DNA of 64,000 nucleotides, taken from assembly GCA_002224055.1 (NCBI GenBank), contig AZLU01000040.1, forward strand, positions 93,316 through 157,315, written 5' to 3'. Below, one piece after another: positions 4,784 through 59,805 of the stretch. The DNA comes from Pezizomycotina sp. ARF18. Taxonomy: Eukaryota; Ascomycota. The notes under the pieces were generated by a model. It saw only the letters and a list, made by a program, of their open reading frames with translations, was not told the origin of the DNA and did not search any database. How positions within the stretch are numbered: position 1 is the stretch's first letter; the number at the start of each line of letters is the position of its first letter. Position numbers and translations under genes: made by a program.

Positions 4784-7724
4784 TCATACATTTAGTAACA
4801 TCCCAGCTACGCTCGCGTTTGCCTTAACTATAAACCCCTCAAGCTTAGCAATACGATGAAGTAAAGTTACTGCCTCTTCGTGGCGGTTGCACTCCTTGTA
4901 GAATAAAGCAAGCTGAAAAATGCAGTGAATCGTATCGGGATGCTCAAAGCCAAGGACGCGCTCTCTCGCTTGCAAAACATACACATGCAAGTCTTCGGAC
5001 TGTTTTAGGAGTCCTTGGTGCCTCTGTATGAAACTCAAATTCATCATCCGTCCCAATGTAAGTGGGTCCTCAGAGCCCAATAGCTTTATGCTTGTCGAAG
5101 TAACGTATTCTTGCAGCTCTCTGGCCTCTTTCAACCGATATTGGTCCTTATATATCTTTGCCAAAGCTGAGGATATGTTCAAAGTCAAAGGATGCTCGTG
5201 CCGAAGTGTAAGTTCACCGTTGGTAATATCTCAATCGCAAGATGTTCCGCTTCTGTGAATCTTTCCTGACGAAAGAGCGTATTCACAAGTTGAGCCGCAG
5301 CTCCTAGCGTGTGAAGATGCTCCATCCCAAGATGAGCCTTGCAATATTGCAGTACATGCAGCTGTAAAGCTTCAGCATCCTGATAACGCTCAACGCGTCT
5401 GTATATACTTGCTAGATCTAGTTCTAAATCCATGATCTCCGCGTGTTCGGATCCGAGAATTTTTCTTTTGGCTTCGAGCGTTTTAACTAGAAGCTCTTCT
5501 GCTTCAAGCCATCTTCCCAGTTCAAAATCGGTCCTCCAAGCTGTCTCATAATGGTGAGCGTATCTGGGAGCTCTGTGCTTGGTTGCTTTGCTTTAAGCTT
5601 CAGGGTATCGGTTAGCAAGCCTTTGGCGTCCTTAAATCGTCCCTGGAGCATATAATTCTCCGCTAAGCTACACATAGCTGACAATGTTTCGGAGTGTTCG
5701 TTGCCAAATATTGACTCCTTAATTTCCAATATCTCCACCTTGAGCTCACCAGCTTCCACGTACTGCCCCATCCCTTCTAATAACATGCAAACTAAGAGTT
5801 TGCTACTAAGGGTGTGTTGGTGCTCTTCCCCATATCGTTGTTCATTTAACATCACCCGGTCGCGATATAGGTCTGTCATCCATTCGGGCGAAGCTTCTAA
5901 TTCTCTGGTATTTCTAACGTCTGACTGCAATGCCAAAAGGAAGCCAGGTCGTAATTGCGTAGAGCTGCAAAATGGGTAGCCCAGAAGCTTCCAGTTCGAG
6001 ATTTGATTAATATTTGAAATGTTGATATTGAACCTTCGAGATCATTTTGATTATTTTTGTTGCAATGGGCAAAATCAAGACTCAGCCGTAGGTGTTTCCA
6101 ACAGTACAATGTGCATACTCAAGGAACGGAAACTGAGATACAGGGACTGTGCGTGAGTCAAAAATAGCCTTTTCGCTTACGTGTTCGATATAATTGATGC
6201 ATGAGATAGATAAATTACCATGCGCTTGCTGTTGATTTCCAAGAGGTGGATATTTGTCATGCCGTCCTATGGTGTTGAATCTCTGAACAAGAAAATCGCG
6301 AAAACTGGAGTGGATAATCACTAGCTCCTTGTCATTTCTCATAGTGATCAATGGTGAGGCCATTGCCATAATTTGTCTTATCATGACAGCCACCGGCTTT
6401 TGAGACGGCTCTCCAATAGCGCCCTTCGAAGGGTCTATCCTCATCGCCTCCTCTAGTTCTTCCGGTCTCAGCGGTCGTAAGCTCCAAGTTACCCACTTAA
6501 GTAGGGCCTCTTTAGCATCTCGCCTGCTCTTCTGGATTATTTGCAGCTCGGTTAGATCATCATGGAAAATTCGTTCGAGAAGGTAATTGTACAGTTCCGA
6601 CAAACCAGAAGGTAACTGCTCGACTAACAGGAGAAGGTCCTGGTAGGTCGAGTAAAGGTCAAGGTATTTAACTATCTGCGATACTGCTAGAGAGGCCCAC
6701 AGAAACATTCCATCGCTCTTTGCTATAATCCGAGATTGGATTTCTTTTCTGTTCTCAGGTTGAAGGTCGGTAAGTTCCTGTTCCAAGATATCCTTGACGT
6801 ATTTCGAAATATCCGGCTCTACGTTTGCTGATGATATCTGGAATTGGGTCGCAGATGGCGGTAGGGATTTTAATATTCGCATGTCGTACTGGCTTAAAAC
6901 CAGAACAGAAAATTGTGAGTTTGCCGTTGCCGGAATTGAACCCAACTCGACAAACTTCTTGACAGCTTGAGGAATATCGTTGCTCTCATCGAGGCCATCG
7001 ATGACCAATTTGACGTGGGTGTAGTAAGGCAGTAGCTGTCTGATGAGGTTTAGAAGGACGTTGACGCTGGCAATTTTCTCGGCCTTAGCGCGCCAGGCCT
7101 TCAAAATATTTCCTTCTGGGCGAAATTCAAGTCTCGCCTGCAAATGATCTGCCATGCCAGCGTGCTAATCATAGAGCTGGTACTTTGTTTCTCCGGGTTC
7201 CGCTTATCAACAAATATATAACCAGTGAATACCTTCGGTCCGAGTTCTTGGTCCGTAGTAAGAAGGTAGTCGATAATCGATGCCGCGATGGTCGACTTTC
7301 CGCAGCCCGGTTTCCGCTAACCCACAAATATTGTATTTTTCCTTGTATCCAGTCGGTGAATTCATTGCTTGTTCCGCCAGCGAGAACCCATTCACACGTC
7401 TTCGAATGGCGCTTCTCGAGTCGGTCCTGGAGATCCGAATCGAAAGAAGGTGGATTTATCCAGCCACGAATGCTATCATACTAAATCACGCTCAGTTCAA
7501 GTTTACTTCAGCGATAAGAATATGCAGGCATGATACTCACGTTTTCCCTAAATCCTATGGTTGAGCCAAAAGTCAGTAAAGTCCGCTGGCTCTCTTAAGT
7601 CAAGATTGCAGTCACGCTCAACGCGAACTTACGTTCTCAATTGTGAAGACAGTCTCTTTCCTCGGTGAATGGTGCACTGTTGTATAGATTTATTAGAAAT
7701 TTGGCACTTCCCTACGTCTGACAT
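4784..7724 (-). CDS. NACHT-TPR part of a fungal NLR (patatin-NACHT-TPR type)
   Basis: This is the nucleotide-binding and repeat half of a STAND/NLR protein of the fungal heterokaryon-incompatibility and immunity class; ligand binding to the TPRs is thought to trigger NTP-dependent oligomerisation. The Walker A coding sequence GGCTGCGGAAAGTCGACC (GCGKST) lies at 7290-7307, preceded by an LWVSG strand. Walker B, VIDGLDES, is at about 6985-7008. The longest clean frame, 6082-7155, carries the rest of NACHT and the winged-helix region, with MFLWASLAV typical of these proteins. Frames at 5487-5936, 5185-5433 and 4784-5188 hold at least eight kinesin-light-chain-type TPRs with the G-EHP-TL signature (FGNEHSETLSAM, LGSEDPLTLGRM, LGFEHPDTI). 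An intron GTGAGT...TTTAG fits about 7532-7475. One base is missing just before the P-loop and further single-base shifts separate the TPR frames. The start is uncertain; an ATG at 7724 lies 14 bases past the patatin stop. It may be the same gene as its upstream neighbour. Confidence 0.9.
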
Positions 7725-7737
7725 TACACAAAGAGCA

Positions 7738-9034
7738 CTAACTCTGTTTGATACTCTTCAAGGCCTCCACGCATGCAATGGTTTGGTCTTTGACCTCTTC
7801 GCTTTCCAAATAATGCCTTGTCGTCGCCGCTAGATATTCTTTTGGCGTGTTCGTCCAACCCCACCTCCTCAAGCCCAGAGACTACATTAAAGCGAAAGTA
7901 ACGGTGTTCGAGCTCCCGTTTGTAAGCTCTTTGGAAAGCTTCCGCCGTCCTCTCCGTTTCGGTAGCAATACTGACAAGTGATTTGGCCACCTCGTAGAGA
8001 TTTTTCCCGAACGGCGCCATAGACGGTTTGCCAGTCCCGATACTTATGAAGCATTGTATGCGACGGTTAGCATCCGGCCACACGTCGCGAGCCTCCGCTA
8101 AAACCTCTTGCACGGGATTGTTACATCCGACGGCCCCGTCTATAAAAGTCTCCCCGAACTCCCCGATAGTGACCGGATCGAAGAAGCTCGTGGCCGCAGA
8201 GGTGGCGCGTGCCGCTTCCCAATGCAGCAGTCAAGCTCGGTTCCTCTGGCGCTTTGTAGCTTCGCAAACGCACGCTTTGCCTGATCTCATTCCTTACTGC
8301 GCACACAAACCTATTTTATTTATTTATTTTTTTTTTTTTTGATAATACTATTAGCACCCGTTTGGGCTTTATTGATAGACTAAGAAGACAATTGAGAACT
8401 TACACTTTACAACGAGGGTCCGGCGATTCCCTCATTTCCTCATGACCTTGTAGGCCCGCAGTCTCTATGACTTCGATGATGCTTTGCTTCAATTTCTTCG
8501 AATCGAACTTTCACGAACGGTGAAGGCTTTGTCGTATGCTTTGCCAACAATGTTCACTGACGAGTGCTTTCGCGCCTTGAATACCTCGCTCGATAGTCGA
8601 AGATAGGCTTGAATGCATTCCGAAACATCGAGCCGGAGTCGACCTAGCATTATCGCTATGAGACTATTCCACAATTCGTATTAATAGGTATTCAAAGAAA
8701 ATTTCCGAACAGCGACCGCGGTAGCAGGCTCTTACCTCCGGTACTCGTTCCCCGATCATATCAAAGACCTGACAAGGCTTCGGTGGATTTTCCGGGTTAA
8801 TCTCTTCATTAGGTGTTTGAGAATCATAAGAGACGAGAGACCGCGTACTCTCCTCCATCTATCTCAAGAAAATTGCTCAGTCAGAATAAGAAAGCAAAGC
8901 GTGTCCAAATTTTAACGCGTCCAGAGGTTGAGGGGAAGGAACGCTAAATAATAATCTGCTTCACACATACCCAGGGAAAGAAGCCGAAGCGGGCGCAGAG
9001 AGTCCGTATCGTCGCCGGTATTCAAATTGGCCAT
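7738..9034 (-). CDS. Patatin-like phospholipase domain, N-terminal effector of the NLR locus
   Basis: A cPLA2/patatin-fold lipid acyl hydrolase, the classic N-terminal effector of fungal NLRs. The ATG at 9034 opens MANLNTGDDTDSLRPLRLLSL (64 nt), then an intron 8970-8859 (GTATGT...GATAG) whose phase restores the oxyanion-hole motif LDGGG. Next comes PENPPKPCQVFDMIG and the nucleophile elbow GTSTGG, split by an intron at 8735-8664, followed by LIAIMLGRLRLDVSECIQAY. A third intron, 8403-8311, carries an A/T tract. The catalytic-dyad motif IDGAVGCNNPV is at about 8125-8160, followed by QCFISIGTGKPS. The last residues (DQTIACVEALKSIKQS) end in TAG at 7740-7738. Single-base deletions fall in or beside G-runs at the DGGG and GTSTGG motifs and at several other points, so no single continuous frame exists as written. 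The clean terminal stop suggests either a patatin gene adjacent to a NACHT gene or one fused gene with a misread junction. Confidence 0.9.
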
Positions 9035-13355: not shown

Positions 13356-14689
13356 ATGTCATCCTCGCAGCTGTTCCCATCCTCCGCATCCTCCTCCTCG
13401 CCGTTCAACAACCTAACATCGCAACCCCCGGCGCCCTTCGCGGACCCGATCCGGCAGCTACTGCGGCAGCTTTCCTTCGCTGCGGTCCCCTCGCTGCTCG
13501 TCGGCGCCGCGCTCATATACGCCGTCAATTACGCCGCGGTTACGCGGAGACGGGGTGGCAGAATGTGTTCACGGTGCTGGCGCTGGGGGCGTTCGCGTTC
13601 GCACACTTCGGGGCGAGGGTGGATTGTCCGCCGTTTGCAAGTTTTAAGAATTGTCCTAGTATGTTTTTTTTTTTTTTTTTTTTTTTTTTTCTTCTTAATC
13701 CATATGCCCACTCTCTTCTTTTTTTTTTTCCGGTGCTTTCTAAATTGATCAATTTCTTTTTTGCACTTCGCAGTCGCAATCGGAGTCCTCAAGTTACTGG
13801 ACATGTACATGCGCCGCGACGCACCCCTAAATACCGCCACCACCACACCCAGGTCCGAAACCACTCCCCGTCCCCAAACCTCCGAATCCTCCGACTCTCT
13901 AACGATCGACACATCCCATCTCCTTCCCCACCGCTCAACCCGCAACGCACGCCAAACCTCCAAACAATCCGACCCGCCCGCCTGTACCAATCCCTCCTCC
14001 TCCTAACGCAACTCCGCTACGAATCCTTCACGCCCAACCCAATCCGAACACCACCACCACATTCTCCGAACCGATCTCCTTCATCTACCACCTAGCATTC
14101 TTCGTACTACTACAGCACTTACCGCAGGACTACGCCGTCGTCATCGCGTTCGAGGTTAATATCTCCGTGTATATAATCTTCACCGGTTTCCAATTACTAC
14201 TGCGGTTTAGAGATTCACCGCCGATAATGAGTCCATTGTATACCGCCGATTCGATAGCGGGGTTTTGGACGGAGACCTGGCACAACGCTTTCTCGTCGCC
14301 GTGTACTTCTATCGCATACGATCCCGTTCGCAACCTTCTCCAGGAACTAAATGTTCCACGAAACATCGCTCGGAGTATAGGATTAATAAGCGCGTTCGGA
14401 CTCATGGCCGTGTTCCACATATACTGCCTCTACCCGTCCTACACCTGAGGAACTGTACGAGTAGGCTTGTTCTTATGATTAACGGAATTGCGACGGCGGT
14501 TGAAGTTGGTATATGGGGGAGGAAGAGGCATTGGGTTAGGAGGTGCTGGCGTGGGCGTTTGAGGTCGCGCTGGCGACGTGGGTTGCGGAGGCGACGAGGG
14601 TGCCGAAGGGGTTGAGGAGTATTAGGTGGGCGGAGATCTGCGGGGTGCCGCCGCCGTCGGTCTCGGGGTTTATGGAGAGCGTTATATAA
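13356..14689 (+). CDS. Wax-synthase-like / Tri7-like membrane O-acyltransferase
   Basis: Probably an integral-membrane acyltransferase of the fungal wax-synthase-like MBOAT-related group, which acylates alcohols or secondary metabolites. The ATG at 13356 opens a Ser/Pro-rich leader, then a hydrophobic span (SLLVGAALIYAVNYAAV) and a second one (VFTVLALGAFAFAHFGA). An intron at 13659-13773 (GTATGT...TTCGCAG) contains a very long poly-T tract. Downstream come VLKLLDMYMRRDAP, the family-typical LRYESF, hydrophobic LAFFVLLQHLPQDYAVV and FEVNISVYIIFTGFQLLL, then the diagnostic FW---WH motif (FWTETWHNAF, about 14264-14293) and NIARSIGLISAFGLMAVFHI with the conserved membrane His. A tail ending in SGFMESVI stops with TAA at 14687-14689. 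At least three single-base shifts separate these segments (near 13545, 13970-14060 and after 14448). No cluster partners are visible nearby, so the substrate cannot be guessed. Confidence 0.76.
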
Positions 14690-19689: not shown

Positions 19690-20605
19690 AACCATCCAAA
19701 AGGAAGATTTTGAGCGTAACAGATTTCGTGAGGGAACACGGCCACCGATTTGAGAATGTGGGAGAAAGCTCAGAAAGAAAAGCATCTGACACTGAAACAC
19801 CGGCCTAGCAAGAGCCCAGGCTTTGGTGGCGGAGAAAGCGTCGACGAAAAGTGAACAAACGCTTTGAGCAAAACCGGGTCGGACACAGAAAGTACCGATA
19901 CAGGCCGGCCTCAATTATCAAGGCCAGGAAGATTACGGAGAGGCGGCGCGGAGACCAAGAAGAAGAGGAAGAAACCAAAGGACGTACAACTTCCGATGGA
20001 GCTCACACCACCTACCGATATCAGAATTATGACTCTGATTACAGCGATTCAGATTGTGAGCTTGAGTCCACGCTGTGGAGCATCCAATGCGAGGAGGCGC
20101 AGCAGCGCCTCGCGGTCCAGGACTGGCACGGTGCGGAGGAGACCATTATCAGGGTTCTGGCTCGCTATCCTAAGGCGAGAACGGCCGCCCTCAGCAACGT
20201 CGCTTTCGGTGGTCCCTGTTACTAGTCGTAGCGAAGACGAAGCAGGAAAAAATGGTAAGATGCTGTGCAAACGCTGCGGTTAATCGGATCCAGGAGTGCA
20301 GTTGAAGCAGGTCCGTTCGATGGGCTCCAAACAGCAAAGCTGCATAATGTCATGGCGGAGGCGCTATTTGAGAACGGCGCGGTAACTTGAAAGCTGCGAA
20401 GGCCACATGCAGGAATGCGGTGAAGAGGGCAAGGAGATTTAAGAGGTCCACCTCCGAGTGCGCGGAGAAGGAGGTAATAGATTCGACGGATGCGATCGCG
20501 TTCAGCTCGATCGAGTTGATGGTGAAAATATTAGAGGCACTGGGAGAAAAAGCGGATGCGAGGGCGTACGGTCATTTATTAGCCGAACACACGCCTTCAG
20601 GTTAG
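19690..20605 (+). CDS. Lys-rich linker plus TPR-like C-terminal region, frame-broken
   Basis: Directly after the RING gene the DNA stays GC-rich and coding-like but switches frame several times. The pieces, in order, are a Lys/Glu/Thr-rich disordered stretch (TKKPSKRKILSVTDFVREHG, later ETKKKRKKPKDVQLPMEL), an acidic patch (NYDSDYSDSDCELESTLW), a helical piece with WHGAEETIIRVLARYPKA, and a last segment whose HNVMAEALFENG, LKAAKATCRNAVKRARR and ILEALGEKADARAYGHLL read like the terminal TPRs of fungal TPR proteins. The stop is TAG at about 20603-20605. At least four single-base shifts are needed to connect them. It may be the C-terminus of the preceding RING-type gene or a separate gene; no RBR-TPR fusion is known to me. 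The TPR assignment rests on spacing and resemblance only. Confidence 0.42.
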
Positions 20606-20854
20606 AATAGTCAGTAATAGTATTTTCAAAGAATATGAGACCCAATTATAAACACCTTTATCGGCGGTTACGAATAGCTTTTTTTTTTTTTTTTTTCAAT
20701 ACGTTCGCGATATAGACGATAAATTCAAACAGAACTTCAAATTTGCGAATAATGGTCCTTTGTACTCCTAGCCACCCCTTCACTGGATAATACTACAATA
20801 AGGTCTATAAATATCACTAGTTATATTGATGGAGGTTGTATATTAATACAAAGG

Positions 20855-22330
20855 TCCAATCAGCATGTCGAAGGGAAAAGGTCTCCGTAGTTTCGGGGAA
20901 TCAGCCGGGCTTTCTTCTAAGTTCGTTGGTGAAGGCATTATCACCAAGTTATTCAAGCTGTGTGGCAAACTCGGCACTTTAGTGCATAAGCTGCGTGGGG
21001 GTTGTAACGAAAACCTATCATATACCCATAAAAGAAAGGTCTCCGTTTCTCGCGGATTTTAAACGGTGTTTCCTGCAGAAGGTTAATTGTTACTTGCATA
21101 TAATGTTTCACCTTATTTCTCCGGCGCGTCCGGAGCTGCGACAGAGCCTATCTTGAACGTTCGAAGGAAACGCTTTCCGGATTTCTCGCGGATAATATAT
21201 GGGTTTCCGCGAAGTTATCGTGAACAGTAATTCTCTTTGAAGACTTAGAATGTTACGGTAGGACCAATGAGAACGCTTGAAGGAAAAGCTTCCCGTTTTA
21301 CTCGCGGATATTAACGATATTTCACCCTTCTGACAGTTATCGTAAAGGTATCTAGAAAGCCTAAACCTTCTCCACCTATCAGGATTTTGGGGAAAAGCTT
21401 CCCGTTTTTATCGCGGATGAGATACGGCAAATTCGAGTCCAAAGTGAGGAAGGAACCCGTGTACCTTGCGTTCTTCCCGCATGCGTTGTCTGGTGTTTCT
21501 TGTGGATAGAAGGTCAGGTAAGGCGTTTCCGTTAAGCTGACAGTTATCGTGAATATAGTCGAAAATACCTAGCCCCCTAATTGACCTATCAGAATCCATG
21601 ATGGAAAGCTTCCCGTTTTATCGCGGACGGGAAACGGTCTTTCCGCAAATTTAAAGAAAAGAAGTAGGGTTCCTTTCGCTAGTGTCGCGAAAGATTTCGA
21701 GCGTTACGTTAATTGGAGGTGTTTCGGGAGTAGCTGTGTTCGTTTAAAGCCTTGTAACCCTTCTCGAATTCTGCGGCCGTTTCACCGCAGTCGTTTCGTG
21801 CATCAAATGTAAGATATCCGTACCATAATGATATAACCAATCGAGATACTCGGGGGAAGCTTCCCGTTTCCTCGCGGACAGTGGGCGGGGTTTCCGCTAA
21901 CCTTTAGGTGTAATGGCTTGTTTTCTCAGTATGGTGAAATGCGTTCTATGTTTGATAATTACACAGCTGGGTCCTTCCCTACGGACATGTTCCTTCGCTT
22001 GAGGCGGGTCAGGAAAAGCTAACCATTCTTGATCGCGGATATCAGGCGGGTTTCCCGCATTATAAAGACCATCTGAAATTACGGTAGGGGAGGAACCTAT
22101 CAGAATCTCCAAGGGAAAAGCTTTCCGTTTTTTCTGCGGGGACAGATAGCGGCCTATTCTTGAAGAGTTTGAGACGGAAGGGAACTTGAGCCCTTATATG
22201 TAGTTCTCCTTTAAGGGTGATTATTAGGGGTCGTTTGGTAACAAAATCCTCCGGTTGGCGGGGAATTATAAATGTTGTACGCTCATTAACCTTCCAGACT
22301 GTGATGCTATAAAGTTATCGTGCAAACCCT
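20855..22330 (+). repeat. Cluster of about nine diverged copies of a double-hairpin motif
   Basis: A block of about 60 nt recurs at roughly 20875, 21033, 21165, 21283, 21391, 21603, 21854, 22012 and 22113. Its order is constant: CC(T/A)ATCAG-AT upstream, then GGAAAAGCTTCCCGTTTT, then TCGCGGAT, 10-20 variable bases, then GTTTCCGC. In some copies AGTTATCGTGAA follows (21213, 21335, 21542, 22314). Two parts are palindromic. The core is a perfect 12-bp palindrome, GGGAAGCTTCCC, at 21854-21865, and GCGGA pairs with TCCGC, extending to a 7-bp stem at 21186-21212. Spacing is irregular (about 100-250 bp), copies are diverged, and the intervening DNA is unrelated between copies. Some copies translate as GKASRF-RG, but stops and phase changes argue against a protein. 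It is not a satellite, CRISPR array or known transposon end that I recognise. Function is unknown. Confidence 0.78.
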
Positions 22331-22693
22331 CGTATCTCCCTGAACCACTTCTTGATATATCGATGGCCAATCATACCCAACCGGATTCCTTTCCTCCTCT
22401 GCGGGGGAAAAAATAGTAATCTCTTTTTGAAAATGTTGAGATGCTTTCGTTTCGCAGGATGGAGTGTCGTAGGAGGCATGCGTGACCACCACGCTGTCAT
22501 CGGGCAGTATGCGTAAACCCGAGGGTAAAATATGGTAAATAAATAGTGGAGTTCCGTTGTTCCGAGTTTCAGCTTCCTGAAAACTGCGCGCGTTAAGGTG
22601 AATTCATTCACTCAGGTTGATGATTGCTTTTGCAGATCGAAAATAACCAGGGAATCTTTGTAAAAAGGGACACCGCCGCGCGCCGAACAAACC
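22331..22693. other. Spacer between hairpin cluster and first AT-rich element
   Basis: Ordinary composition with two overlapping minus-strand frames of 61 and 98 codons at 22307-22611, neither with recognisable features. Nothing else is seen. Confidence 0.4.
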
Positions 22694-23304
22694 TTCTCTC
22701 GTGCCTAAACTGCCTGCTTATATAATCTGAGGAATATATACCGTAGGTAGCCTAGGCTAATTACGCGCTAAAAATTATAAAAATTATAAAATACTGTTTA
22801 AATTTTAAACGATATTTTTAAATCTTAAAATTTATAAAATATAATTTAATTATAACTTAATAATTAATATATAAATTTTTATCAAAGTTATATATATAGA
22901 TTTTAAAATTAGACTTAATTAAATATTTAAGTTTTGTAAATTATTATAAAAAATTCGTTAAATAATTATAATTTTATTATAATTAAATAAAAATAAAAAT
23001 ATTAAATTTAAAATTTATCCTCTTCAAATATAGCTTTTAAATAGCTATTAAACATTAAAATATTAAAAAAAAATTTTTATAAAACTTATAAAGTTTTAAA
23101 TAATTAATTAAGCTTGACTTTTAAATCTATATATATAATTTTAATAAATTTGTGTTAATTATTAAATCAATATATATATAAGATCTTAATATTAAAAACT
23201 ATAAAAATATTTTTTTTATAATTTTTTAATGCATAGTTAGCTTGGACAATTTATGGTATATATTTTTTAGATTATATAAGTAGGTAGTCTATGTACGAGA
23301 AACG
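22694..23304. mobile_element. Long-TIR, AT-saturated non-autonomous element, copy 1
   Basis: The left end, from about 22694, reads TTCTCTCGTGCC...ACTGCCTGCTTATATAATC...CTAATTACGCGC. The reverse complement of the right end, to about 23304, reads TTTCTCGTACAT...ACTACCTACTTATATAATC...CTAACTATGCAT. The two arms align over about 80 bp and differ mostly by G-to-A and C-to-T changes. The interior is almost pure A/T with no coding capacity. This is a DNA-transposon-like MITE or foldback structure with RIP-style decay. No target-site duplication is obvious at these borders, and the transposon superfamily cannot be assigned. Confidence 0.8.
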
Positions 23305-25622
23305 ATATATCTACACAACCCACGTTAGTTCTGCTAGCTTTTTAGCCTTTAAACACTATATGTCAGAAATATTAGGCCACTAGTCTATGCAATACCTATG
23401 ACCGTAAAAGAAAAGTTTCATTCTCGAAAGACTGAACCTATCAACCATTGATCTCAAAACTTTTGAAAAGAAATCCTTGGCACTCGAACGGGTAGCTTTT
23501 CCAGTTCTCAGGGAGTATAACGGCGTTCCCGAATTTATTTTTTATTCTATTTGATGCAAATGCACCCTATGATGATATCGTCTATAAGTATATATCTCAA
23601 CCTTTAATTTCCCAATCAGCTTAAGTAAGAAAGGATACTAGGCAAAGTATGAAGATAAAAGTACCGGCGTGCAGAAGCTCCCCTGGTCGCCTCTTTGACA
23701 TGATCCCGCTGTGGGTGGCTTTGAGTGAGCTTGTTCTTGATAGATTAGTGTCACACAGTGGTGATACGTAGGTCTGATTGCCTCATGCATGCTACATTGA
23801 AAACAAACACCCGTTCTCTGGTGGCGACGAAAGGCACCTCTAGCGAACGCTTCATGCCAGGGGGATGGAACGAGACGAAGAAACCGTGGGAGCAATCATC
23901 CGCGGATGAGAAACCCGAGAGTACTATTGGGCAACGCCGATTGATGTTCATCAGGATTTATATACGCGATGAGCTACCTGTAAATCAAGCTCTAATGTCA
24001 ACGCCATGGCGCCACTTCGATTTTAAGGAAGTGAAAGAAACCCAACACCATTTTATCGAGAGATGAGGAGATATAATCATATAAGTTTGATGAGGTAGAA
24101 ACGACGCTGATTTCTTTTTATAGAACTCGTCTCAATCGGCTTTGAATATAACCTCCTAAAAGCATCGCGGAACAAGGCGAATTACCGATATACATCCATT
24201 TCCTGTAAACCCATGCCATGAAATGTAACAACTCAATCCTAGGATAGGAAAGGATCTTCGTCCCCACCGGGGGGAACACCCGGGAACTCCGCTGCAAAGA
24301 ATTTCAAAGCTTAAATAAAGTCACAGAAGGCCGTTACCAATCCATGTGTTGTTATAAGTAGTCCTTACTTTCCAACCCGAAATAAATATATTGCACTTTT
24401 AAGGACACCGCTGCGTAATTGTTTATAGTAGAATCATTGCAAGTTATCTTTTTTGCTACCATTTCTTGAATTCTTAGGAGCCCCCTCCCCCGGTCTTTCA
24501 TTCTCTTTCTCCTTTGTTCTTAGGCCATCTAAAAATTTAGTCAGAATAGATTATAAAGGTCATTTTCAACTTTATACACGGAGAATTCCAATTCCAAATT
24601 GTGCTTGCTTGTAAAGTTGTGTTTCCTCTTATATTGAAAGATAAGGCAAGTATATTACTGAATTGCCGCCTTTAAGGAAAAGCAAAACGCCATTATATTT
24701 GCTCTGGAATCATTATTATTATAAACTTAGCTTTAGTATAATACTCTGGTGTTTAAGGAACACATCTGAAGGTCCTAAACGGCACAGGCTCACTCGGAAG
24801 AACGGCCGTAGATGCTATATCATATTCCGAATAAACCGCCGAATACCAATATAGCAGCACAAACCCCTTACTCAAACGGTCCTTTGTACAATCTTGCATC
24901 CCCACATGCGTACCAGAACATGGCGGTAGGAATATGCGAGGTCTTCCGAAATAGAGATCTGCGAGTTCACGAAAGCTGTCTGATGGAACATTCCGTATGA
25001 TGAAATATTCTTAATCGTCTAGCTAAGTGAACTACCAGCAAAGTAGCTCTAGGGCAGCACAAACAGGTCGATTCGATTTGCAATTCTTAGCAATGAGTAT
25101 AGGTTGATCACGAGAAGATCACGACCGGCTGAAGTCAAATGTTGGCCATGCCCTACGTAAGGGGAGGATAGCTCAAATGTAAGGAACCGTTGAAAGCTAA
25201 CACCTCCGCTTTAAAGGTCGCCTCCATCTATGTTATTCTTTTCACAAAGACCTTTAAACCCTCAAGTCATACTCAAAAGAGCCCTTTCCCTCTAATTTGC
25301 GAATTATATCAATTCTTAGTGGGCCTAACATTAACATGCCTTTAGTGGTTTCGGAAGTACTTCTCCTAGGCTTGCTCCAGTCTGCGCAGACTCCATACCT
25401 CGAATTCTGGAGTATTCCCCATAATTGAACTCTGTCGGCTCGACTCAAGCCTCTAAAGCCTGTGTGCTTATTATCAGCCTGCTTCTTACTCATGCTCACC
25501 GATAACCCATTCTTTGGTAAATACTCGCCATTAACGAAGCTCCAGAGTTCCCCGACTTTTCCCCGACTTTCTCGCTAGAGAATTTATTCCCCTTCTCTCC
25601 CCGACATTTTCTTCAAAAAAAG
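23305..25622. other. 2.3-kb segment between the two AT-rich elements, no supported gene
   Basis: Normal composition between two related inverted-repeat elements. The frame at 23758-24066 plus (102 codons) and the opposing 23638-23895 minus overlap in a slightly GC-richer patch, but neither has a domain or splice signal. Short CCCGACTTT direct repeats occur at about 25550-25572, close to the second element. Whether the segment ever moved with its flanking elements cannot be judged. Confidence 0.45.
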
Positions 25623-26346
25623 TTTCTCTCATACCCAAACTACCTTACCTACTTACATAATGCAAAAAATATATATCACAAACAATCTAAGCTAACTACG
25701 CGCTAAAATATTATAAAAATATATAAATTTTAAAACTTAAGCTTAATTAAATATTTAAATTTTATAAGTTTTTATAAAAAAAAAAAAAAATTTTTTTTAA
25801 TATTTTAATGTTTTAATAACTATTTAAAAGCTATTAAAACAAATTTTTTTTTTTTTTTAAATTTAATCAGCGTTCGATGTACTGGTAGGGTTTTGGGTCA
25901 TATAGCTGGCGAAAAGTTGTGTGATTTTGAGGCTCAAGCACATGATTTGAAACCTTTTTTTTTTTTGCCTAGTAAATTATATGCAAAAACAAATTATTTT
26001 AAATACAACTAGAACCCTCTATCGAACACTAAATTTAATACTTCAATTTTTACTTCATTATAATAAATTATAATTATTTAACGAATTTTTTTATAATAGC
26101 TTATAAAACTTAAATATCTAGTTAAGCCAGATCTTTAAAATCTACACATATAACTTTAATAAAAATTTAATATATCTTAATCATTAAATTATAATTAAAT
26201 TTATATTTTATAAATTTTTAACATCGTTTAAACTTAAAAAAACATTTTTATAATTTTTGCAATTTTTTAACGCATAATTAGCCTAGACTGCCTACGGCAC
26301 ACATCCCCCGGATTTTATAAGCAGGCAGTCTGGGTTCGAGAGAAGG
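25623..26346. mobile_element. Long-TIR, AT-saturated non-autonomous element, copy 2
   Basis: Same family as the copy at 22694. The left end TTTCTCTCATACCC...GCTAACTACGCGCTAAAA pairs with the reverse complement of the right end CTTCTCTCGAACCC...GCTAATTATGCGTTAAAA. The right arm is nearly free of RIP-like changes (AGACTGCCTGC...GTAGGCAGTCTAGGC), while the left arm is strongly altered (AAACTACCTTACCTAC...), so the two arms decayed unequally. The interior holds inner AT-rich inverted repeats and a nested insertion at about 25869-26030. There is no coding capacity. Confidence 0.82.
25869..26030. mobile_element. Small inverted-repeat insertion nested in copy 2
   Basis: Inside the AT-saturated core lies about 160 bp of much more balanced composition. 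Its left end begins AGCGTTCGATGTACTGGTAG and the reverse complement of its right end reads AGTGTTCGATAGAGGGTTCT. Arms share AG(C/T)GTTCGAT and AGGGTT. It looks like a MITE of a Tc1/mariner-like family that jumped into the larger element after most RIP had occurred. The family assignment is a guess from the terminal motif and the A/T-rich target. Confidence 0.5.
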
Positions 26347-29300
26347 GAGAGCCAGGCTGTCTCCGCGGAGCGCCAAGGATTTTATTTTGGCAAAGCTTCC
26401 CCCAATATTGATAGGCCAGTCTTCTTAAGCTTTGCTGGGATTGCAGCTGTGAAAGCTTCCATCGGACCACTACTTTTTTCCTTTTTTTTCACAAGTGGGG
26501 TTAGCTTGATAGCGCAGATTCGAGCAGATTGAGGATTGGCCAGTTTTAAGGTGATTAATATCTCAACTCAATGCGGATAGATCTTTGATGAGAACTTTTT
26601 GGACAGATGACCCGCTTTATTGCCGATCTGGAGAAGTTATCGGGGAGACTCCGCCCTATTCCCGTGGGTTCTACTGTGCAGGAATCGACAGGGAATCAGG
26701 GTCTTTTGAAGAACACGAGGGCAGTAAGCAGACGTTTTGGTGGGTCGTTTTCAGAGCGAACAGAAAGGCTTGAGTTGTCGCGAGATTCGACGAATTATAG
26801 ATGAATAGTAGCACGGAAAAGACCCGGAAATATAGAAATCTGTAGCTTGAAGAATACCATGCAACGGAAATGGGATAAGGCACGACCCACTTTAGGTGTT
26901 AGTGCTACACGACAGATACGCGAAGTACAGAAAACCAAGGGAGATTTGCAACAGCAAACAGCCTCAAGAACGTTCGTAAAATGGAGCGGATGTTCTATCC
27001 AGACTGCGTCAAATATATCTGCCATATCTGAGAAAATCTGACTGCGACCGTCATTTCTCACTATGCACCATGTTTGCGCACATACGTGGCGCAGAAATTA
27101 AGGGTCTTATAAATAGCTATTCAAAGGCTCAAAGCCCCATCTGAAAAACGGAACTCGGTCAAACAAGCCCTTCAATATGGAAACCCTCTTTTTCTTCTTC
27201 TTTGGCTTAATTATCCTATGTATTTAATCTGCGTATAGTCAACTCAGAAGATTTTCGTCGAAAGGCTTCTTAGTCCTGAGATGTGTGCTAAGCGGCGCTA
27301 AAAGCCCTTTGAAAATTATCCTAAGTGCTTCTACTGGAAAGATGTTTTTCTAACATTAATAATATTAATGATAAATATTGATTACACCAGTAAGCTATCT
27401 AGAAGCACAAACAATCAAAACAGGGCGAAAAACTCTTCGGCGAAGTTTCGTTTTATGTCTCGAAAACTGCATGGGAATAGTCGGAAGTTCGCACTAGATA
27501 AGTACTCTAAGCTTTCAACAGCCTGGACTATGATATATTGGACGTTGAATTATACAGCATCGCGGGGAAAGATGCACCGCTGATACCATATTGGGATTAG
27601 ATGGAAATTGCTCCTCATTCGCAGGCATGGACGCGGTTCCTATTCAAAGTTTGATAAATGCCCGGAGGTATCGGAAGTTTACTGCGACTCACATTTGATA
27701 TTCCCAAAGTATTGTCCGTGAGGCTACTAAGAAATCGTTCTCTACCCCTCGAGGGCTCCCTTATTACGCTCCTTAAGAGCATCGGAGTTATTATGATCAC
27801 CTTTTGCTTGAAAATTTTATATGACTTTCTTGACATTTCAAGTTTACGATGATATATATTCATGGTTTCTCTATATTCTACAAAACGACGTTGCTTTCTA
27901 CCAATCAGAAGATCAGATTAGGTCGGTTAATGGGGTTAGGGAAACCCGTCGAGTCCCCGAGATTCAAAACGGGTTTTCCTTATAGATCTTGATCACCCCC
28001 TGCTCTAGATTCCTGGAATAAACCTACGATCTGGAATCTGAGGAGCGGCCCTTTTCTTCACCCTGCCAGACGAACTTCCAAGGCACCGGGAAGACGCGCT
28101 AGGCCGAGGAGGATTTCCATCTGCGCTTTAGGTTTCAGCGATAGAGGATTGAACCAATTATAACGACGGATCTAATTCGGAAAAGCTACCCGGGATGGCT
28201 CCGCATGTGCCCCCGGGGTCGGCAGGAAGAGACCTGCCACGAACACTCCCGTTGTGATTAGAAGACCCTAAGGGTCTTCTGTCGAAAGCTCTATCTTCGG
28301 GTTACCGTTGCTATGTACGCTGCCATTGGTGTAGAGAGGCATAGAGCGCCTCTTCTCCACGCTCGCTGGACTCCGCGTATATCCGCGTAGCGGGCGGGAG
28401 ATCAATACTTCGCAATACCCGAGTATGCACCGAAACCACTATCCTATACGTCAAGTTGACCGCTGTTCTCCCCGACTCTCCAACGGACAACCCTACGGGG
28501 TGCAAAGGGTGCTCTTGTACCTTTCCTCTCTGTTTAATCCCCAATCTTCCTGACAAAGGTTGGCGGGATGAACTTTATTATTCGACTAGATTAACTAACT
28601 CACTCAGCCATCGCCCCCCTGATTTTTTTTTTCTGCCACGTACACAAGCCTTCACCAAATCTTCATACGAACAAACACAGACTTTTCCTCCTCAACAAAT
28701 CGCGTCGAGGGACGGATGAATCTTACGATCTTCAATATACACCAGAATATAACACGGTTTCTCCGGATAACAGAGTTGAAAGCCAATCCAAGATAAGGCG
28801 AAGTATATTCCTAAGTATATACATTTACCACTGCTACGGAATTCTATTTAGTTGTGCGATTGTCAGTAAACGAAGGTTTAGCTTTCACCACGCGACAACA
28901 TCATCACCACGATCATAAAAATGACACACGATTCTTATTTTTTTAACGATACACCATTTATATGCGAGCACGTACCATTCTGGGATATCATGGAAGTTTC
29001 TTTATGTTCAAGTAGTTGTTATTATCGAAGAGAATCCGTAAAAAGCATCAGAGACTACCAGACGAAAAAGGAAAACACGCCTCACGCCGCCCACTCGGTC
29101 GCAAATACAGCCTGTTAAGACCCACCACCACTTAGCAGAATAATCGCGACTCAATACCTTGCACACGAGCAGGAAACTCTATTATTGGTAACGGAAGGAG
29201 AATTAAAACATTAAAAAAGAGATGGGCCACGATTTCAATGATAAAGGAATGTTTCTCGCCGACAGTGAAGACCTTTTCCCCATTTTACATATGTAAGGGA

Positions 29301-42400: not shown

Positions 42401-45269
42401 GATCAAAGATCGAAGGGTGGAGCTTTTTCTCTTAAGATCATGAAAGGTTGAAGGGAAGGAAAAATTCAGCAAAGGGTGTTTTGTCAAAATACTCACCGGC
42501 CTAAGGCGAAAAAAAAAAAGGAAAAGGCTGAAGATATCTCTTCTTTGCTTTACGTGGATGGCACCATATAGCATTAGCCTCCCAGCTTCATGGAGCTCGC
42601 CTTGTGCGCCACGATTATTTAGCAGCAGTAAACGAGATACTTGAAAATTGGCGTCCGGAAGGAAAGGAGATGATGGAGTGTCTCCCTTGACCTATAGCTC
42701 TGTCATATTATCACCAAATCAATGCCTCTAGAACTCTCAAAGACAACACGGCAAGAGAAACGGTTTACTTTACTAGCGGAGAGGTAATAATTATTGTGAA
42801 GTATGATCGTGAGGGTCTTGCAGCTATCGGTGTACTAAACTGGAAAAATGCAAGCAACAGCCGCTCATATTCAAGGTTTAAGAGTCGCCGTTAGATTTTG
42901 TTATATTTGTTCCCTAATCCTGCCTCCCGAGCGGCCGCCACCTATATACCAAGCTATTTCGGTGCTAAAAAAAAAGAAAGAAAGAAAGGAACAATCCCTT
43001 GAAAAGCAAGGGCAATTGTTAAAACGCTGCGCTAATCCAACCTGTTGAGATGAAAAGCAAGGGAGTCATCTATGGTCGACCCTCTTAAAATATTGTCGTT
43101 TCAATATTGAGATGAAAATTCCAAGGACTCAGACGTATGTAGCATCTTACGAGGCTTTCCTCGCGTTCTGCCTTTATTCGCGTACAGTTTGCTGGCGAAA
43201 GGAAATATAGCTTTTCTTACCCGATAATATCGATATTATTATTCAAACAAAATAAAATTAATCACCGGGAGGCAATTTGAGTAAACTTCGTTTAAGCTCC
43301 CCAGTTTGTTTATTTCGTTGAAAATCTTGGTCACGATATTTAAATCGTTGAATTGAGTATTTAACCGTTGGATGTAACTACAGTAAAATTATTATTATGA
43401 GATATTTATCCATTTGCCGAATCATTATTATTATTTCCAATGTTTTTACTTTCTCTGTTTCTTAAGCCTGACAAGGAAAAAAAAATTAATACAAGAAATA
43501 TTTTTGGACTTCGATTTAATCTTCGCTTTCTGTGACATGCATTGGAGATCACAGACGTCTCTAGCACAAGCAAGAGTATCACACGCTTACTGCTATTCTT
43601 TCTAGCTCTGGTTTAGCGGAGCTGATACCCGTTCATCCGATCGATATATTTCTGGGGTTTCATGAATTGACGTTAACCAGACATGAAAATAACACTTCGA
43701 TAATATAGTGCTAGTACTTCCTAGGATCAGATAGTAATATAACATCGCGTGCGCATACCTAACCTCTCGCCTTCCAGGGAACAATACCAGGCAAGAAGGA
43801 GGAAACACGTATCGCAAATGCTTTTCGCAAAAAACGTGTTGAACCCTTGCCAGGCTGCTGGTACGGATACAATATCACAGTTTTATAACGTTAAAGACAT
43901 CAGGGATTGTTCTCGTTATTATCTCCTATTAGGAGGCAGAAAACTGTAGTTACGCGGTATTTGAAAGATATTAACTCTTAGTCGGAAGTTCTGCTAGGAA
44001 ACGTTAAATAACAAATATCTGAAACGAACAAGAAAAAAAAAACCGAAACACTTCCCACAAAAAAAAAACATGTAGATGATCCCCTTGCTTGATTTAATTG
44101 CGTGACTTCCTGATATCGTTAAGCAGGGCCTTGTCAGCTTTTAGTTTCGTGAATTTTCAAACTCCAATCTTTTGGAGAATGTCGTTGTCATCTATCGTGC
44201 GGAAATACCATCGGATTTCGAGGTCGGCTCTATGCTCTCCAGAATTTGACTCCTTTCGTTCTATTAATATCAAAGTACGCCATCTCAGCTCTCGAAACGC
44301 TGAAAGGTTTATTATTCACTGGCTTTGACACGTTCCCGCGATGTTGTCGTACCTTTTGTCAGAACTTCACGGCTGACCGGCGAATCGAGTGGATACTTCG
44401 AGGCGAAGCCCGGGTCTATCGATATTGATTTATTTATAATTGAAGATATACCGAGTCCTTGGTATATATATACAATCCTTCAGTGCCTAAAATCGAAAAA
44501 ACTTCGCTACCATTATAGGGCCATCTACTGAGAAAACGTATATAGTGGAAGCGGGATACCATTCTTCAAGCGAGAGTGTGGGGATAGAACGCAATCGTCG
44601 GTCTCAATCGCTTTCCATTTGCCAGCAAGCGAGAGAAAAGGACCCGGTTGAATATCCTGAGAGTAACTGATCGCAAATTGCCGTTACTTCGGCTTGAATA
44701 GAGACAGTGTAGTCAGCGTCTTAATGAATTCACTACTAATTATCACTAACTCTCGAGCCTTATTTGAGTTTTAAAAGAGCGAAAATGTATATAATGAGGC
44801 TCTCCTCGGTACTACGTAGAATGGACGGATGCCAATGAATAACTCATTAGACACTTCATCACTTGTCGTGTTTTGTTCATAAGCCACTTACCACTGTAAG
44901 GCGGTATAGGAGGGATAATGACTCTATACCACCCTCGTGTTTGCGTCTCATTGGGGAGAAATTGAAACTGAGTTCGCCAGATGTCAAAATTGTAAAAATA
45001 TTGTTTTTCACAGGACACGATTTACAGTTCTGGACCAGCAAAGTTCAGACAACATGGAAGTCAATATTATATGCGTTTTTCTTTTTAAACTTTGGAAAAT
45101 GACTCTATTAAAATATAGAAATTCTCTTTCCCTTCAAGAAGTTCGTCAAATGACACCTTGATCGTTCGAGGCTTTAGCATTGGGAAAACAAAGATCGTCC
45201 CGGTCTTTTGACATATATAGACATTCATTTAAGAATTAGAACGAAGCAATAAATAATCTCAAGCGAACA
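39418..45269. other. Intergenic block, no supported gene
   Basis: About 5.8 kb. Upstream of the minus-strand gene lies a T/C-rich leader (39420-39540), plausibly its 5' UTR or promoter. The longest frames, 40387-40809 plus (140 codons), 42200-42574 minus (124 codons) and 41190-41492 plus (100 codons), have no domain and include homopolymer translation. A TATATATATATA stretch occurs at about 40853-40864. No repeat family was found. Confidence 0.45.
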
Positions 45270-57615: not shown

Positions 57616-59805
57616 CTACATGAGCATCATAATTCCACCAATCGCTGCCATCGCTGCCACAACATTACATAAGGGCGCACTTGTTCCCGCGCGGTGCTCT
57701 TCTTGGCCGAGCCTGTATGTTCTTCCCTTGCTCTTTGTCGCTCTGCTGCTTGAGCGCGGTTTGCATGTCTTTCGGCAACCGACATAACCCTCCTGATCAT
57801 TTACGACAATAGTCGTCGCGTTCAAGCCCGGCGGCAGCGTCTTGTCATGACTCTCAAAGTACTGCGTCAGGCCAGCGAGATTGATACTCGGCTTGATGCT
57901 CAATAAGTCCGTGAGGATACCGTGATCATCCGCGGCGAGGCATTTCGTCTCGAACAGAGGCTTGGTGAAGTTGAAAATAGGTGGTGGCTGGAGGGCACCC
58001 TTCGGTATCGATTGCCGACTGGAGAATACTTCTATGTTCGACTGGACGTTGAGAGATATGTCGCTCGTGCCGTCGATTGTGATACTGTCGTAGAGTTCAA
58101 AGTCGGTGTCCTTCGGTTCCGTACAATTGACAGTCACGTTGGGAAGCGGTGATAATGTTACGGAGAGTTTCGGGAGATTAAGCTCCAGCCCCGCGCTGAC
58201 ACCGAGACTATTCGGGCCGATGGTGAGCGTGAGCTCGACGTAAGGTTTCAAGGCGGCGGAAAAGGTGACGCTGGGTTGACCGCGTGGAGCGTGAAGGGTC
58301 TGTGTGAGACGGAGGTGTCGGACCTGCATATTTCCGAGTATTAGCATGGGATGTAAGATTTAAGGCGATTGCAGAGTTAAATTATTCTCTTACCATCCCG
58401 TGAAGGAGCTTGAGCTGATATCAAGGAGGTCCACCTTTGCAGTCGCATTTGTAGGTACTTGAAATTCGATACCGCTAGAAAATTCAAGCTTCCCGTAAAA
58501 CTTGCCGTCATTCCAAGCGCCACTCCCGCAACGGGGCCAACGACGACGATACCTGGAATGATAAACGGCTGAGTGGTATCTTCGGCGCAAGGTCCATGAT
58601 TTATTCAAGGAGAAGCCTTTTTCTAAAACGATCTCCATCCGAGTCTCGCATCGAATTTGTCAATAGTGCTGAGGCAGAGGCGTTCTCGAAGCGGATCAGG
58701 TGCTTCAGATCGTCTACGACATTGTCTCCGAGCTCTTCTATTGATTCCGTGATATCTTTAGCAGTGCCCTTAACTCTATCCCAGAACGAACCACCGGTGC
58801 TGAAGTCATCGGAGAAGTCCTCCTCTATCTGCTTAGCGAGACCCTGAAAGCTGTTATTAAAACAACTCCAAAGCGCCCACCGACACTAATAGAGGCATTA
58901 AAGAGACAGTCGAGACAGGTGAGCTGGAAGTTGGAGAGCTGTGGGATGCTATAACGATATGCAAAATTAGACCAGAATATCTTTCGGAAGTTGTTTTATT
59001 TCTTTGGGATACGTACCTAGCGGAAGCACTCGTGTTTGTTTCGGGGATCTCTGCCGTTGGCGGATACAGCTGGGTCCTGGCACCATAGTCTTTCGCAAAC
59101 TTCAATGTCTCATTCTTTGGGTCCTCAACGAATGTGACATTGAAGTGGGAACCCTTGATGTCTCTCTTCCGAACGCGTAGATTTGCGTCGTTTGAGTATT
59201 TATCCACTGCGACATGGCCATAGTGGACTTCCATCGAGTGGCCAACTTGGGTCCACGGTAGCTCCTCTGCTCGAGTGTTGCGGCCATACATTCGTGGTCA
59301 AAGTTGACATTAGGAATATGGTACGGTGTCCGCTGATGGTCGCTACCGCAGCCATCATGGGATGTTATCAAAATGAACCCGTCGTCCCACTCGGCTTCGG
59401 CAGCTTTTAATGAGTGTGGATTGATGAATTTGATTACAATAGCAGATGAGTTGCACGACACGGATTGTGTAAGATGATCGATATCTTCTAATGCTAGAAT
59501 ACCCTTGTCGGGCTTCGAGTTAAACTTCACAGATGTTACAACTCGTTGCTCCTCATCCCATGCTGTACGTGATTTATGTTAGCTTTATGACTCTAACGAT
59601 CATGTTTATTGCAATTGTTGGTACGAGAATAACTTACGATGCGAATATAAAAGTTCTGTCTGCGTTTGTAAGCGGAGATGCGAGCATAGTCTATTGATCT
59701 GCCGCTTAGAGTAGGTAGGGATCTCTTGACGGGGAGTAGATGGTCGACAGCTCCGCAGACTCCCGTAAGGACGGATAAAGGTAGAAGGTAAAGAACGGAA
59801 AACAT
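57616..59805 (-). CDS. GPI-anchored secreted protein resembling fungal DUF7029/DUF7223
   Basis: The ATG at 59805 opens a clear signal peptide (MFSVLYLLPLSVLTGVCGA). An intron at about 59636-59560 (GTAAGT...GTACAG) leads to an exon with SVKFNSKPDKGILALEDIDH, VIKFINPHSLKAAEAEWDDG, FILITSHDGCG and VNFDHECMAATLEQ, like the N-terminal domain of these proteins. A one-base shift near 59270 is followed by SMEVHYGHVAVDKYSND and FNVTFVEDPKNETLKFAKDY, and a second intron donor (GTACGT) near 59020. Later pieces include FSDDFSTGGSFWDRVKGTAK, PFIIPGIVVVGPVAGVALG and GKLEFSSGIEFQVPTNATAK. The clean last frame, 57616-58347 (243 codons), holds a beta-rich domain (PYVELTLTIGPNSLGVSAGL) and ends in a hydrophobic GPI-attachment tail (VVAAMAAIGGIMMLM). 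It is likely an N-glycosylated wall or surface protein, with many Asn-x-Thr sites. The catalytic role, if any, is unknown. Confidence 0.78.

Follow-up and report, generated by a model that had tools for sequence, protein, structure and literature searches.

The stretch of DNA analysed here, called the window, is 64,000 nucleotides long (C40:93316-157315) and contains many short broken reading frames. Among 19 frames neighbouring the repeat array described below, only one gave a Pfam match above the cut-off (MBOAT_2, 13903-14448), all others being weak and below it. With the ten frames from beyond the neighbourhood that were also run, the matches above cut-off are MBOAT_2, TPR_12 and DUF7029, and those below it NACHT and patatin. 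These domains and the many broken frames would be in keeping with a filamentous fungus. The TPR match lies on the minus strand at 4784-8230, together with NACHT, winged-helix and patatin domains below cut-off, and this domain content makes an NLR-like fungal gene likely. The DUF7029 domain was found in a minus-strand frame at 59102-59578 (E 1.8e-23). Upstream of the array, an uncharacterised plus-strand frame ends at 20605, about 250 bp before the array begins; neither this frame nor the plus-strand frames at 19.1-20.2 kb have a Pfam match above the cut-off.

Beside the array, two inverted arms (22692-23010 and 26030-26346), 81% identical over 327 columns, bound 3.65 kb. No target-site duplication was detected at this inverted repeat, and the five inside frames tested showed no Pfam match. 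The segment 22692-23290 has a G+C content of 15%, and a related stretch (67%) is present at C37:58537-59033. On both strands, the 1.5-kb running means of the folding z-score are lowest for the whole window where they start at 24.75-26.25 kb; the region concerned, 24750-27750, overlaps the right arm. A GCCAAGGATTT...TTGATAGG..CAGTCTT arrangement is common to 26350-26420 (plus strand, outside the inverted repeat) and 23430-23510 (minus strand, inside it); its alignment score of 27 is within the range of 300 shuffles (maximum 29).

Anatomy and conservation of the array

A profile search of the window identified a real repeat of nine worn copies, c1 to c9, with a unit of about 105 bp, located at 20852-22164 and all on the plus strand (Table 1). 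The sequence-only profile of the nine copies produced nine strong matches in the window (cmsearch, 40.5-54.4 bits). Since a model matches its own members, the copies were also left out in turn; 9/9 were recovered, with 18.1-39.2 bits and E values from 9.1e-5 (c8) to 2.1e-11 (c6), which excludes chance. When the window without the array (62.5 kb) was shuffled 80 times, the nine-copy model scored 10.8 bits at best. The first-pass annotation, which had placed about nine diverged copies within 1.4 kb at 20855..22330, was therefore right in number and position, the copies and a terminal E box (22313-22324) together occupying this interval. Its irregular spacing of about 100-250 bp corresponds to a measured 102-251 bp from B box to B box.

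Each unit is built from short boxes with the consensus CCWATCAG (A), GGAAAAGCTTYCCGTTTT (B), TCGCGGAT (C), the looser RCGGnnTTTCCGC (D) and AGTTATCGTGAA (E), the last being found in four places of the array region. The gaps are stable in length: 8, 9, 10 or 11 bases separate A from B, and 0, 1, 2 or 3 separate B from C. The 12-mer AAAGGTCTCCGT is common to c1 and c2. The palindromic parts, which had been described as kept, are preserved in only some of the copies: AAGCTT is intact in 5/9 (c4-c7 and c9). The 3' arm TTTCCGC that immediately follows C is intact in 3/9 (c3, c6 and c7) and nearly so in c2 and c8. The 5' arm is intact without the 3' arm in c4 and c5, and whole boxes are lost or altered in c1, c8 and c9. 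The anatomy of the array is well supported; its possible function is inferred.

Table 1. Features of the repeat array and its probable outlying copy (window coordinates; bits, score with the nine-copy profile unless stated otherwise; left-out E, E value of a copy omitted from the model)
Feature	Position	Strand	Remarks
Copy c1	20852..20920	+	42.4 bits; left-out E 9.8e-6; C box altered (TCGGGGAA); without E box
Copy c2	21011..21079	+	45.6 bits; left-out E 6.9e-6; B box in the GGTCTCCG form, as in c1
Copy c3	21143..21215	+	51.6 bits; left-out E 8.1e-7; perfect TCGCGGA/TCCGCGA arms
E box AGTTATCGTGAA of c3	21213..21224	+	repeat search
Copy c4	21260..21331	+	51.0 bits; left-out E 9.5e-11
Two units in tandem	21330..21637	+	alignment runs from the E box across the spacer into A-B-C
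E box AGTTATCGTAAA of c4	21335..21346	+	repeat search
Copy c5	21373..21436	+	51.5 bits; left-out E 5e-10; no TTTCCGC arm immediately after C
Possible remnant of another worn unit, in the c5 spacer	21496..21534	+	weak: 3.6 bits, E 0.14
E box AGTTATCGTGAA after c5	21542..21553	+	repeat search
Copy c6	21582..21651	+	54.4 bits; left-out E 2.1e-11; best model match
Copy c7	21832..21902	+	47.8 bits; left-out E 4.2e-9; 12-bp palindrome GGGAAGCTTCCC
Copy c8	21997..22062	+	40.5 bits; left-out E 9.1e-5; A box lost
Copy c9	22093..22164	+	48.1 bits; left-out E 2.5e-9; C box altered
Isolated E box AGTTATCGTGCA, 3' end of array	22313..22324	+	repeat search
Probable tenth copy	27937..27993	-	inverted, outside the array, 5.8 kb away; B box without AGCTT

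Conservation is highly uneven along the unit. When the copies are aligned by their boxes, pairwise identity averages 0.62 for A (first 8 bases; 0.54 when A is taken as 12 bases), 0.73 for B and 0.80 for C, while it is at chance in the eight bases left of B (0.28), the five bases after C (0.29) and the ten bases left of A (0.26). The contrast between 62-80% in the boxes and 25-29% between and beside them bears out the ordered block of the first-pass annotation. Column variance over 64 columns (A as 12 bases) is 0.076, a value not approached in 2000 equal-rate simulations (maximum 0.056), and the conserved columns are clustered (13 conserved/unconserved runs versus a permuted mean of 32.8). All 36 core pairs are more similar than expected at p<0.05, as against 5/36 spacer pairs. 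Because the blocks were defined after inspection and the simulation used a star tree, these statistics overstate the certainty somewhat, yet the contrast is still large. Small insertions and deletions that replace spacer sequence could also make it look greater than it is. This comparison of copies within one genome suggests selection on the letters of the boxes.

Origin of the copies and their distribution

The segment 21330-21427 aligns to 21537-21637 over 102 columns with 73.5% identity (E 3.7e-6). As this alignment crosses the spacer, it indicates head-to-tail duplication of a unit of about 105 bp. An old tandem duplication is shown in this way for one pair and is the probable origin of the remaining copies. 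The earlier statement that the sequence between copies is not kept holds for most spacers and fails for this pair, which also contradicts the dismissal of a tandem satellite. Tandem Repeats Finder reported no array at the locus, and a tree of the nine cores contains no supported fork (0/6 inner branches). The helical phase of the spacings, followed by hand, revealed nothing clear. At the copy flanks no target-site duplication was found, the mean flank repeat being 2.9 nt (2-4) compared with 2.7 nt at 3000 random places.

The inverted tenth copy scores 13.0 bits with the nine-copy profile when filters are switched off, and 15.4 bits with a realigned nine-copy model, for which the best of the 80 shuffles is 10.8. 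Of the left-one-out models, 7/9 rank it first among matches outside the array; in the other two, from which c1 or c2 had been omitted, it does not appear in the top two. It is called probable because neither the search with default filters nor nhmmer with the first alignment reported it. A pattern designed for it matched only itself in the genome.

Other parts of the window contain weaker resemblances. A half match of boxes A and B at 42420-42450 (minus strand) scores 12.4 bits with default filters (42419-42450) and 12.3 bits (E 0.008) with filters off, 10.2 bits with nhmmer, for which 30 shuffles reached 9.5, and 7.0 bits when the nine-copy model is realigned. Beyond the array, box B has a near-form, the 14-mer GGAAAAGCTACCCG, at two sites, 23489-23502 (minus) and 28179-28192 (plus); the genome search found only one more exact copy, at C48. 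The profile matches around the two sites in the window are 23487-23502 (minus, 8.6 bits) and 28152-28192 (plus, 6.8 bits).

The genome searched comprises 46.36 Mb in 408 contigs. No further full copy emerged when the whole 46.4 Mb were searched eight times with patterns or DNA queries, a result that strongly worn copies could escape; the whole array and a single copy, used as DNA queries, each matched only themselves. The B pattern with at most one mismatch has 29 genome sites, 5 of them in the array (reversed control, 48), and the A-B pattern has 4, including 3 in the array (control, 1). For C-D there are 11 sites, 4 in the array (control, 7), and for B-C 3 sites, 2 in the array and 1 at C17 with three mismatches (control, 0). 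Looser letters in the B-C pattern yield 309 sites versus 205 in the control, a real excess; its 3 exact sites among the matches listed are all in the array. A B pattern with A or T yields 51 sites versus 33, and 4/7 exact sites lie within 7 kb on the contig of the array.

The 32 loci drawn from B, B-C and C-D pattern sites showed no match to the nine-copy profile under default filters. In each of seven stretches fetched because of a B-like word, the top match was at that word itself (6.1-10.6 bits). One of these matches (L083, 10.6 bits) extends into A, and elsewhere in the stretches scores reach 6.3 bits at most. When a ten-copy model was run on 85 loci, its highest score beyond the array was 12.3 bits, at a locus picked for its pattern (L061); shuffles reached 12.5. 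Phage records, viral contigs and prokaryote genomes gave no match. A literature search for the 14-letter core found no paper, and nothing wider is claimed about the absence of the locus from print.

Folding and coding potential

The annotation had attributed the repeat to a double hairpin and suggested selection on structure, with an array of small structured RNAs as one possible reading. The RNAalifold consensus contains four pairs on either strand; 0/4 changed on both sides. The structure conservation index is only 0.13 (plus) and 0.10 (minus). Compared with shuffled columns, the alignment performs slightly better on the plus strand (energy p 0.015, index p 0.03) and on the minus strand (energy p 0.045, index p 0.045). 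Mean folding z-scores in the array (-0.31/-0.30) are ordinary on both strands when set against those elsewhere (-0.07/-0.11; spread about 1.1). The retention of the 5' box without the 3' arm in c4 and c5 argues that TCGCGGAT is kept for its letters and not for pairing. Rfam gave no match in the whole window at the gathering score and, at a relaxed threshold, a single match within 20500-22800 (E 2.6; 14.9 bits versus a cut-off of 58.7), in line with the remark that the repeat belongs to no known class. A tRNA scan with the bacterial code found none. A structured RNA or double-hairpin element is not supported, given that there is no compensatory pair, no Rfam family and no unusual folding energy. 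Selection itself remains likely; selection on structure is not supported.

Short open frames exist on both strands of the array. The gaps of 8-11 bases between A and B and 0-3 between B and C are not multiples of three, so any reading frame is broken across the copies. Minority letters in B are distributed over the codon phases as 8, 11 and 7, without codon periodicity. Pfam matched none of the 11 array frames tested, and no relative of the c1 frame was found in the genome. A repeat-protein gene on either strand, to which peptides suggestive by eye had pointed, was rejected on gap lengths and codon phase; coding by the array is unlikely.

Interpretation and known systems

The array is tentatively read, with somewhat less than even confidence, as a degenerate tandem array, specific to this locus, whose spaced box module selection may have preserved for its sequence; a cluster of sites for a putative DNA-binding protein would be the most plausible function. 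A unit of about 105 bp, consisting of an E box, a short spacer and the A, B, C and D boxes, would have been duplicated head to tail in intergenic DNA, and the order and near-fixed spacing of A, B and C would have been retained while the intervening bases were lost. The boxes would be read as primary sequence by a putative sequence-specific DNA-binding protein or protein pair, and the array would provide a multi-site docking platform for regulation or chromatin at a single locus. The common direction of the nine copies and the pair that aligns through its spacer are consistent with this account. The inverted outlying copy agrees with a site whose orientation does not matter and slightly favours DNA over RNA. 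Binding sites are what is left of the three readings offered by the annotation, although the HindIII-like palindrome that it named is not the reason. Against binding sites count the length of the composite site, whose roughly 65 bp are much for one DNA-binding protein, the lost or altered boxes, as expected of a decaying array, and also the restriction of the E box to four places and the weak common pairing above shuffles. A more specific version is improbable. It would make the array the principal or sole genomic site of a dedicated putative DNA-binding protein or protein pair, a single-locus platform (a silencer, boundary, pairing or replication site) of a filamentous fungus whose A-B-C module kept its order and spacing while the intervening sequence became saturated.

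A less probable account, to be taken seriously all the same, is a functionless decayed minisatellite whose unit of about 105 bp was amplified once and then worn by substitutions, insertions and deletions. The better preservation of the blocks would then be due to chance, to local exchange among copies at a late stage or to the replacement of spacers by insertions and deletions. The head-to-tail pair, the tree without a supported fork, as in an old array, the damaged boxes of c1, c8 and c9, the possible remnant in the c5 spacer and the lack of any function attachable to the array all agree with this account. Equal-rate decay, however, does not reproduce the contrast between the blocks and the adjacent bases, and the A-B gap stays at 8-11 though the eight bases left of B are at chance. 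Considerably less likely is a long non-coding RNA with repeated modules that are recognised as sequence or local structure, in a layout like that of the Xist A repeats. Spaced modules in 9/9 copies on one strand, a TATAAATA seen by eye upstream at 20806-20813 and the weak four-pair stem slightly above shuffled columns speak for such a transcript; the pairs without two-sided change, the low conservation index, the ordinary z-scores, the missing Rfam match and the inverted probable tenth copy speak against it.

The two remaining explanations are more remote. A decayed repeated-peptide gene is very unlikely, even though the minus strand reads KR.AFP...LIG-like motifs in several copies, presumably resembling Kex2-processed repeat precursors, and similar minus-strand peptides can be picked out by eye (such as PRVKREAFPSSVLIG in c4) besides the short frames on both strands; the gap lengths, the codon phases in B and the frames without Pfam match or genome relative contradict it. 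Serial insertion of a tiny palindromic mobile element, also raised in the annotation, is the least likely of all. Similarity limited to the core in most pairs and the inverted outlying copy at 27.9 kb would fit, whereas the copies lack target-site duplications, share one orientation in 9/9 cases and have no further full copy in the eight whole-genome searches, and the tandem alignment continues through a spacer. On the first three of these grounds serial insertion is not supported, nor, on the first and third, is a dispersed mobile element such as a MITE or SINE.

With the minisatellites and other short tandem arrays known from filamentous fungi, the array shares its head-to-tail arrangement, its intergenic position, its single locus and its unit of about 105 bp; it differs in its strongly diverged copies, its irregular spacing (102-251 bp) and an identity that is mostly confined to spaced boxes. 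The Xist A repeats (PMC2796953) offer another comparison. They combine a few short conserved modules with variable spacers on one strand, and the array is similar in these respects. It differs in having no conserved folding.

The CENP-B box motif, TTCGnnnnAnnCGGG, is not in the unit consensus; within the array it is exact in c8 only and has one mismatch in c7. Alpha satellite is a tandem repeat with CENP-B boxes for a DNA-binding protein, some of them mutated (PMC8997354). The array, likewise a tandem repeat with short boxes, would work in the same way if functional, with nine copies in place of megabases. Since copy number and box differ, it is not a member of the alpha-satellite/CENP-B system. 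The double-hairpin elements of Allomyces mitochondria, cited in PMC2800124, are similar in name and look only, having two potential hairpins in a row and many copies. They are mitochondrial, whereas the window looks nuclear, judging by its 242,561-base contig with fungal gene domains; in the array, moreover, the hairpins are not kept and the copies are clustered in one orientation.

If the array is a worn minisatellite, it calls for caution, as short kept words in an old array can mimic hairpins. If its boxes are selected, it would be a non-coding fungal locus with a function that could be traced; arrays of long, spaced sites confined to one locus can be markers of special chromosome functions.
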